64,000 nt of DNA from Rheinheimera sp. 4Y26. GTDB taxonomy: Bacteria; Pseudomonadota; Gammaproteobacteria; Enterobacterales; Alteromonadaceae. The position numbers were made by a program, and so were the translations under genes. The notes beneath the pieces were generated by a model. The model searched no databases. It was not told the origin of the DNA and was given only the letters and a program-made list of their open reading frames with translations. Shown here piece after piece: positions 1 through 38,801 of the stretch; position 1 is the stretch's first letter, and each line of letters opens with the position of its first letter. The stretch lies in NCBI RefSeq assembly GCF_025245835.1, contig NZ_JAOBWS010000008.1, forward strand, positions 1 through 64,000, in the 5' to 3' direction.

Positions 1-76
1 GACGCATAGCTCAGCTGGATAGAGTACTCGGCTACGAACCGAGCGGTCGGAGGTTCGAATCCTCCTGCGTCCGCCA
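1..76 (+). tRNA. tRNA-Arg (anticodon ACG), first base cut off by the window edge
   Basis: The cloverleaf is complete except for the first G, which lies one base outside the window (compare the identical copy at 133). The anticodon stem CTCGG/CCGAG holds the loop CTACGAA, so the anticodon is ACG, whose A34 is normally deaminated to inosine to read CGU, CGC and CGA. The 3' CCA is encoded at 74-76. Further copies may lie upstream of the window. Confidence 0.95.
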
Positions 77-132: not shown

Positions 133-209
133 GGACGCATAGCTCAGCTGGATAGAGTACTCGGCTACGAACCGAGCGGTCGGAGGTTCGAATCCTCCTG
201 CGTCCGCCA
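133..209 (+). tRNA. tRNA-Arg (anticodon ACG), second identical copy
   Basis: This is a full 77-nt tRNA. The acceptor stem GGACGCA pairs with TGCGTCC, the anticodon loop is CTACGAA, the T-loop is TTCGAAT, and CCA is encoded at 207-209. It is identical to the preceding copy over everything visible. The 56-bp spacer contains no evident promoter, so the two are probably co-transcribed and processed from one precursor. Confidence 0.97.
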
Positions 210-211
210 TT

Positions 212-236
212 AAACCTGCCTCGAGCAGGTTTTTTT
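212..236 (+). terminator. Intrinsic terminator of the tRNA-Arg operon
   Basis: Arms AAACCTGC (212-219) and GCAGGTTT (225-232) close a five-base loop and run into a T tract ending at 236. It starts three bases after the tRNA CCA end. The same terminator, including the CCA bases in front of it, is repeated at 324-352. Confidence 0.85.
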
Positions 237-328
237 GCTTTCTGCGTCCCCCGGCCTTTTGCAGAGCAAAAGGCGTGAAAACGGCGCAAGCCAAATTGTT
301 GGCTTGCTTAGATCCGTTTTCACCCATT

Positions 329-353
329 AAACCTGCCTCGAGCAGGTTTTTTG
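329..353 (+). terminator. Second copy of the tRNA-Arg terminator
   Basis: Arms AAACCTGC (329-336) and GCAGGTTT (342-349) are followed by a T run to 352. Bases 324-352 are identical to 207-235. In the first copy that block begins with the CCA of the tRNA; here the tRNA body is missing and a long hairpin (275-323) stands in its place. Confidence 0.75.
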
Positions 354-543
354 TTTTTCACATCCATGTGAAAAATCCCTGCGGGACCAGCTTCGCTGTC
401 CAACAAGGTTCCAGACCTTGTTGTGTTTTCTGCATCCCTGTAGAAAATCCTTTGTGGACCAGCTTCGCTGTCCACAAAACGGCAGGATAGCCGTTTTGCA
501 CAACGAAGTTGCCGAAGGCGAGCTACATGGATGTGGCGAGTGT

Positions 544-563
544 AAAACGCTCCGGGCGTTTTT
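544..563 (+). terminator. Terminator-like hairpin within the array
   Basis: AAAACGC (544-550) and GCGTTTT (556-562) close a five-base loop, and the 3' arm leads into a run of five T. No gene ends just upstream, so it may be a decayed or duplicated terminator and not one serving a transcript. Confidence 0.5.
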
Positions 564-719
564 GTGTTTCTGCGTCCCCCGGCTTCTCGCAGAGCTCGTC
601 GTGTTCATTCTGCAAGACGCAAAACTGTTTGCCTCTTGAGAGCCCGAATTCTCCCCTGTAGAAAATTCTTTCAGAACCAGCTTCACAGTCCGCAAAAAGG
701 CAGAATAGCCGTTTTGCAT

Positions 720-38459: not shown

Positions 38460-38531
38460 GCGCGCTGTTTTTTGGCTGTATGCTGGATTAGTGCCTGGCT
38501 GCAGCAACATTCAATAATCCTGGAGGATTTT

Positions 38532-38801
38532 ATGTCACTAACTACTGCTGAAAAAGCAAAAATTCTGGCCGATTTCGGCGTTGTTGCTAACGACACTGGC
38601 TCACCAGAAGTACAGGTAGCTCTGTTAACTGCTTCTATCAACAAACTGCAACCACACTTCGCTGATCACAAGCATGACTTCCACTCACGTCGTGGTCTGC
38701 TGCGTATGGTTTCTCAGCGTCGTAAGCTGCTGGACTATTTAAAGCGTAAAGACCAGGCTCGTTACGCTACTCTGATCGAGCGTTTAGGTCTGCGTCGTTA
38801 A
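38532..38801 (+). CDS. rpsO: 30S ribosomal protein S15
   Basis: The 89-residue protein is one of the primary binders of 16S rRNA. GDVVAN-type variation aside, the family core [22 protein letters not shown] and [24 protein letters not shown] is intact and the length equals E. coli S15. GGAGG precedes ATG 38532. It has its own promoter and terminator inside the larger cluster. Confidence 0.99.

Follow-up and report, generated by a model that had tools for sequence, protein, structure and literature searches.

A nest of small four-hairpin repeats behind tRNA-Arg genes of Rheinheimera, probably copies of a non-autonomous mobile DNA element

Results

The window analysed here, a stretch of 64,000 nucleotides, is the start of contig C32 in the 4.08-Mb genome of Rheinheimera sp. 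4Y26. At the contig start a tRNA-Arg(ACG) gene is cut (1-76, plus strand), and an identical repeat follows 133 bp further on in a second tRNA-Arg(ACG) gene (133-209, plus strand), the stretches 1-77 and 134-210 being identical over 77 nt. Since the contig opens in a repeated tRNA-Arg gene, a longer tandem tRNA array may have been broken or collapsed in the assembly. At this position relatives carry tRNA-Ser(GCT) and then copies of tRNA-Arg. An ordinary ribosomal S15 leader (RF00114) lies far downstream, at 38475-38588.

Behind the second tRNA gene stands an array of hairpins, whose parts are on the plus strand unless stated otherwise. It starts with an intrinsic terminator, T1 (207-238; AAACCTGC-CTCGA-GCAGGTTT and a T run), followed by module C1 (239-323; fold z -6.3), which begins in tRNA-Arg 3'-end sequence (CTGCGTCC) and comprises a short hairpin (254-274) and a two-part stem (275-323). 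A terminator copy, T2 (324-352), shares 92% identity with T1 across 36 nt, and its T run is abutted by copy A1 of a four-hairpin unit (353-424, UCC orientation; H1 353-376, H2, H3, and H4 401-423). The next unit, A2, is interrupted: its 5' part (425-473; H1 425-448, H2 and H3) and its 3' part (544-566; H4, AAAACGCTCCGGGCGTTTTT) are separated by copy D (474-543, minus strand), an inverted copy nested at GTCC^AAAA with GGA loops on the plus strand. The boundary of A2 was defined from relatives without the nested copy, and its 3' part from alignment and a partial match (544-562, E 0.24 for this part alone). The array ends with C2 (567-650; fold z -1.4), a decayed copy of C1, and a duplicate, likewise decayed, of the A2/D junction (651-719; fold z -2.5), which is 86% identical to 436-500 (aligned with 654-718); between 436-500 and 364-428 identity is 60%. 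An earlier, sequence-only reading had listed a series of module copies here. These are real repeats, and the module at 649-718 is decayed as proposed, but 474-543 turned out to be an inverted copy nested in the copy at 425-566.

Module C (239-323 and 567-650) constitutes a second family with varying arms, its covariation having been judged by eye; the inner loop of its two-part stem is near-constant (AAAyTGTT) and the arms are variable. By eye, C-like stems also lie between repeated fragments resembling 5S 3' ends where contig C2 of this genome begins (L074, 1-1000).

The array (207-730, 524 nt) folded at -207.3 kcal/mol, against -149.8 (sd 6.9) in 100 shuffles (z -8.3), an extreme value that bears out the description of 207-719 as a dense hairpin array. 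Counting stems that do not overlap and reach 6 bp or more, with G.T pairs admitted, gave 12 in 200-760; this is only modestly above the window mean of 8.3 (sd 2.1) per 561 nt, and the highest count, 16, belongs to the tile 1-561, tRNA genes included. At gathering thresholds, Rfam matched tRNA and the S15 leader alone in the window; the array, for which the earlier reading could name no repeat family, matched none at these thresholds. With matches up to E 10 considered over 1-1000, all those to families other than tRNA were under the family cut-offs, among them a weak one to RsmY (minus strand, 329-452; 14.9 bits, cut-off 57). A plasmid origin was rejected, no plasmid having matched; four Vibrio phage matches spanned only 12-46 or 12-44 of the query, the terminator.

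We then counted paired changes in the arms. In MAFFT alignments made from sequence only, module A (18 sequences) had 52 double-changed cells against 14.3 (sd 3.2) after shuffling, and module D (13 sequences) 38 against 11.6 (sd 2.7); the signal was lost when the pairing was slid by 1-3 columns. The arms therefore covary as had been claimed, and on this evidence together with the folding shuffles chance and plain tandem duplication were rejected. Larger alignments, which are structure-fitted and in which cells count sequences and not events, gave 566 double-changed cells against 139 for 121 model matches in three Rheinheimera genomes (alignment A4) and 540 against 154 for 117 matches from other genera (alignment A5). 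The H1 arms carry little information (0.26-0.8 bit in the seven outer columns of one arm, 0.39-1.12 in the other; most stem columns 0.3-0.8), compared with 1.78-2.0 bits in the columns of the H1 UCC loop. At one orthologous copy the H1 stem reads GCTCGTGGC/GCCACGAGC in G021 (L086) and GCAAGTGGC/GCCACTTGC in G002 (L013), a difference of two paired changes.

The element defined by these copies measures about 65-80 bp and has four hairpins; its end loops, NGGA/UCCN, are constant, while its stems vary freely and remain self-complementary. On the GGA strand it runs A, H4 (CAAAAtCG-cNGGA-CGaTTTTG), H3 (cAGCnnnnGCTg), H2 (CCCgaaGGG), H1 (nnnCA-NGGA-TGnnn) and C/T. Its sites were read with flanks for 86 of 117 matches in the class Gammaproteobacteria, giving 80 distinct sites, 66 of them with a scorable H1. 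GGA is present in the 10-nt H4 window of 79 of the 80 and in the 24-nt H1 window of 78, as compared with 95 of 720 ten-nt windows of flanking sequence, although this conservation is partly built in because the copies were selected by model searches. In the GGA orientation 79 of the 80 sites begin with AC, the preceding base being G in 61 and C in 18. The motif [CT]AA occurs within 8 nt after H1 at 42 of the 66 scorable sites (60 of 462 background windows) and is missing from the other 24. At the sites read by eye, neither a clear target site duplication nor clear terminal inverted repeats were seen, so the element is not classed as a classical MITE. Its orientation seems to depend on the strand of the target and not on that of the transcript.

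To follow the module into relatives, as had been proposed, we built a covariance model of it, R1. Used as a DNA query, the array matched 26 of 60 near genomes, whereas R1 matched 36 of 60 (own genome included in both), and the compensatory changes described above were found among its matches. This partial escape from sequence search follows from pairing and loops being kept more than the stems. R1 matched 10 times in the genome of the window (G000) and 48 times in each of two complete sister genomes (G016, G021); among named records, seven contigs of Rheinheimera and one of Arsukibacterium carry the module. A further model, R3, was built solely from copies outside Rheinheimera, although it is not fully independent, its rows having been gathered by R1. 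In the window, and with E-values that are rough for both models, A1 scored 88.6 bits with R1 (E 4e-20; A1 is itself one of R1's 18 rows) and 73.0 bits with R3 (E 3e-15), the 5' part of A2 52.2 and 38.7 bits (E 4e-7 with R3), and D 44.7 bits with R3 (E 1e-8; minus strand, 474-540).

The copies of the sister genomes lie in varied surroundings. Among 59 five-kb loci, all of them scanned for tRNA genes, 6 contain such a gene and 53 do not; 23S and 5S rRNA were found in 8 of the 59, the rRNA scan being limited to 8. Stable-RNA genes, present in at least 14 of the 59, are thus the context of a notable minority: the module does stand behind other stable-RNA genes, but the tRNA association does not hold as a defining trait. 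An intrinsic terminator directly precedes the unit, on the H1 side, in 26 of 54 locus-by-strand clusters of G016 and G021 and follows on the far side in 1 of 54; some matches were omitted from this set, mostly weak ones or repeats within a locus, and the finder accepts only perfect stems of 5 bp or more, so that imperfect terminators are missed. Rough ORF calling (90 aa or longer) sorted 57 loci into 32 codirectional, 16 convergent, 6 divergent and 3 undefined. Units also occur head to tail, three each in L113 and L071, and L055 has seven matches in series at a spacing of about 150 bp.

Beyond the genus, R1 had matches in 81 of the 276 class genomes, the window's own among them, and R3 in 78 of 397 from the phylum, of which 31 lie outside the class; the layout of the element was recognised by eye in all eleven out-of-class loci that were read. 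Named carriers are Rheinheimera, Arsukibacterium, Escherichia, Klebsiella and Salmonella, the last two by one R3 match each. In L121, L125 and L131 the copies lie in tRNA 3'-end fragments whose T-arm is split (GGTTCG^AATCC), and intact tRNA genes adjoin copies at these loci and at L119 and L124; the L124 copy is, by eye, within a copy of a tRNA-Ser D-arm. Copies at L118 and L163 stand at 5S-like 3' ends (by eye), with an intact 5S gene close by at L163 and none above cut-off near L118. Coding genes are also occupied: a Transposase_mut gene contains a copy without interruption of its 529-aa frame (L127), and in L117, behind a resolvase gene, a 75-nt copy lies in frame where an open frame begins.

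Copies are also found inside other repeats of class loci. In L151 (281-500) one copy sits inside the H4 arm of a partly deleted copy at CG^AATTT, and L116 and L117 carry the host copy alone. Six copies in L123, L153, L170, L185 and L187 follow ..AAAG, several of them within palindromic repeats of the CTTTGG type, which may form a further dispersed family. The element is in or beside yet another repeat (GGGAGCATAGATNACTATGTGACNGGGGTGA) in a Klebsiella phage record (L196) and an E. coli genome (L194). In G164, six identical copies, or seven near-identical ones (L134-L140), have common flanks, so some copies may ride in larger repeats. An inverted tRNA 3' end with GAGAACC..GGTTCG is often seen by eye to the left of the copy (L131, L204, L086 and L200, the last being rttR), with which the tRNA 3' end could form a fold-back.

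Filled and empty versions of a site were compared in a few pairs, from genomes that are related and not identical and, for E. coli, with flanks that are homologous only. Behind the tRNA-Arg genes, G007 (L024) has the terminator without a unit, G003 (L022) one incomplete unit, G020 and G014 (L009, L031) two units, and other genomes more. Downstream of tRNA-Arg in G021, one copy splits a tRNA-like GGTTCG^AATCC (L086); its counterpart in G002 (L013) holds an inverted second copy at GTCC^AAAATC that L086 lacks, the same nesting as that of D within A2 in the window. In E. coli, a prophage gene that neighbours a DUF3486 gene (L195) carries an in-frame copy of 75 nt directly after its ATG, and RefSeq annotates the gene start inside this copy; the homologues L198 and L199, the latter annotated as frameshifted, are without the copy. 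At least 80% of the L195 stretch is matched in 516 of 5426 E. coli genomes. No target duplication was evident in the cases L013/L086, L024 and L195.

No mobilising enzyme was found. The Y1 transposase of the RAYT type (PF01797, E up to 1e-5), rejected as the mobiliser, does not track the copies, being unmatched in the copy-bearing genomes G000, G003, G010, G014, G019, G026 and G027. A group II intron (RF02005) was noticed about 100 nt from a copy in L122 (1676-1984); a link with it was rejected, such introns being found in only 2 of the 14 genomes searched.

In an RNA, G.U wobbles are expected to outnumber A.C mismatches on the transcribed strand, and in our control, the acceptor and T stems of 34 tRNAs, G.T exceeded A.C by 13 to 3. 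Wobbles are rare in the element (63 of 2434 cells in A4, 37 of 2456 in A5), and those of H2-H4 show no clear strand bias (G.T 13 against A.C 19 in A4, 12 against 10 in A5). In H1 they lean to the UCC strand (50 against 12 in A4, 25 against 13 in A5), which is counter-evidence in the direction of RNA; 44 of the 50 H1 wobbles of A4 fall in three column pairs, a concentration that may be inherited within one subfamily. We read the scarcity of wobbles, and their lack of bias outside H1, as a sign that the pairing is maintained chiefly in the DNA, or through template switching, and not as the mark of an RNA gene.

Discussion

The dispersal of non-coding copies over many loci and genomes, and their presence or absence at orthologous sites, lead us to conclude that the array probably consists of nested and tandem copies of a mobile DNA element that is small and non-autonomous. 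Insertion would occur after G (or C), often just before AA, without clear target duplication and with the target strand setting the orientation. Many copies are near or in palindromes, such as the A-tract side of terminators, copies of tRNA T-arms, other repeats and the element's own copies; there may be a preference for palindromes, for which terminators served as the test. In the window, a first copy would have landed behind the tRNA-Arg terminator, with a second in tandem and a third inserted in inverse orientation inside the second, and the rest of the array would have come from tandem duplication of tRNA-3'-end and terminator pieces followed by decay. Transfer could proceed via a folded DNA strand recognised by the order of its hairpins and by its NGGA loops. 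Such recognition would leave the stem sequence free to change as long as it stays paired.

The sequence-only reading had left the choice between an undescribed tRNA-associated element and an RNA; an element, though not one defined by tRNA genes, is now the better reading. On the RNA reading, copies would be transcribed as a structured regulatory RNA, either binding CsrA/RsmA through their GGA hairpins as a sponge or acting as a tRNA-linked sRNA like RtT. GGA is in both end loops of nearly all copies, these hairpins resemble a CsrA site, and CANGGATG resembles RUACARGGAUGU, which we take to be the CsrA SELEX consensus. The H1 wobble asymmetry points the same way, as does the status of RtT and AaHKsRNA22 as RNAs in Rfam and of rttR as an annotated small RNA in MG1655. 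Against this, orientation to transcription varies between contexts: in the Rheinheimera clusters UCC loops are on the strand continuing from the terminator, while GGA loops are on the sense strand at L117, at L195 and beside tRNA genes, and at L127 that strand has UCC. As orientation varies, copies lie in frame in coding genes and wobbles in H2-H4 are scarce and unbiased, unlike those of the tRNA control, we regard an RNA gene as quite unlikely, even if single copies might possibly serve in an RNA role or, judging by their loops, as a CsrA sponge. It is likewise unlikely, in our estimate, that the units are 3'-end modules, terminator-like hairpins in series that reinforce termination or shield the 3' ends of mRNAs and stable RNAs and are kept for their benefit to host genes. 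That explanation gains from the terminators abutting the H1 side in nearly half of the clusters, from the A-tract/T-run form of H4 and from the tandem units and the series of seven, and it meets its difficulty in copies within tRNA fragments, a transposase gene and gene starts, which cannot serve 3' ends, and in copies antisense to the nearest gene.

The covariation could also be mutational in origin, if template switching at quasi-palindromes rewrote one arm from the other and left the loops untouched. One-sided intermediates are indeed few in the alignment labelled A1 (2 of 453 cells), with more in alignments A2 and A4, and wobbles are scarce; mismatched intermediates do exist, as in H4 of the second copy of L151, and template switching alone leaves the constant NGGA loops, the hairpin order, the placement and the dispersal unexplained. 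We find it doubtful as the explanation, although it can act together with the mobile-element explanation. A target origin of the H1 stems, each copied when the element inserts and thus specific to the locus, is highly improbable. The stem and the target of L127 both hold TGGGCTT, and over 66 sites the summed longest common word was 302 against 288.8 with permuted flanks (10 of 300 permutations as high), but this effect is small and explicable by base composition, and at the orthologous site of G021 and G002 the stem changes in place.

The mobile-element reading may be taken further, to a proteobacteria-wide class of DNA whose shape is recognised by a recombinase reading hairpin order and NGGA loops on a folded single strand, the stem sequence being free to drift by paired changes, with RtT and AaHKsRNA22 as resident copies mistaken for RNA genes; we put this forward tentatively, as a conjecture with somewhat more against it than for it. 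Small palindromic repeats are usually found and classed by their sequence, and this one partly escapes such searches. The element links two Rfam RNAs and the tRNA-associated repeats with hairpin strings that follow terminators and with in-frame gene inserts. It is also a test case for telling pairing at the DNA level from selection at the RNA level, which bears on any claim of a new RNA that is based on covariation. A search of the open-access literature (PMC) found no description of the element.

Among known systems, REP/BIME sequences with their TnpA-REP (RAYT) are short dispersed palindromes, often behind genes and without a transposase of their own. The element is likewise short, dispersed, palindromic and often 3' of genes, but differs in its free stems, four hairpins and NGGA end loops and in its occurrence in genes and tRNA fragments as well; of the features of REP/RAYT, one conserved hairpin sequence is missing, and a Y1 gene was unmatched in the seven copy-bearing genomes named above. 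MITEs have terminal inverted repeats and target duplications, and Rickettsia palindromic elements, ERIC and RU are sequence families, whereas in the present element structure and loops are kept more than stems and no clear duplication is seen. Recombination sites of the attC type also keep their structure with free stems. According to two papers, Rickettsia palindromic elements and ERIC/RU-type MITEs are small non-autonomous palindromes found between genes and in frame within them (PMC2229807, PMC10969869).

The closest likenesses are to two Rfam families, of which the window copies are not members by Rfam cut-offs. The copy of L125 (1993-2064, in a tRNA 3'-end fragment) aligns with the full length of the RtT model (RF00391) at 35.1 bits, followed by L121 (30.8) and L131 (28.9), all below the cut-off of 45. 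By eye, the split tRNA 3' end GGTTCG^AATCC and the string of hairpins are shared by L121, L125, L131, L017, L086 and L013, an insertion layout unlike that of window copies A1 and A2, which stand behind terminators. Descriptions of RtT present it as a tyrT operon product and not as a dispersed element, and in the MG1655 annotation rttR is a small RNA beside tyrV. The K-12 rttR (GGTTCG-ACTCGAGCG...CCCGAAGGG...GAGT-AATCC) has, by eye, the insertion point and the H2 and H3 form of the element and end hairpins without GGA loops, and it scores only 15.5 bits with R3 (E 0.09). The model of AaHKsRNA22 (RF02902, Aggregatibacter sRNA 22) has the order ACAAAACGC/GCGUUUUGAACG, hairpin, GGCCCC/GGGGCGAG, hairpin, CGAGU, as in the element. 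At E 1e-4 it matched 4 of 276 class genomes, one of them above the cut-off, and none of these matches was in G000. Three of the four RF02902 loci fetched (L202, L203, L204) coincide with R3 matches, while the best copy, L201 (in G042, which has 13 RF02902 matches), is missed by R3; conversely, the scanned class copies score 28-31 bits with RF02902 (28.0 for that of L125; cut-off 39.8). Both families are filed in Rfam as RNAs, the architecture of the element is common to both, and RtT and AaHKsRNA22 probably belong to its family.
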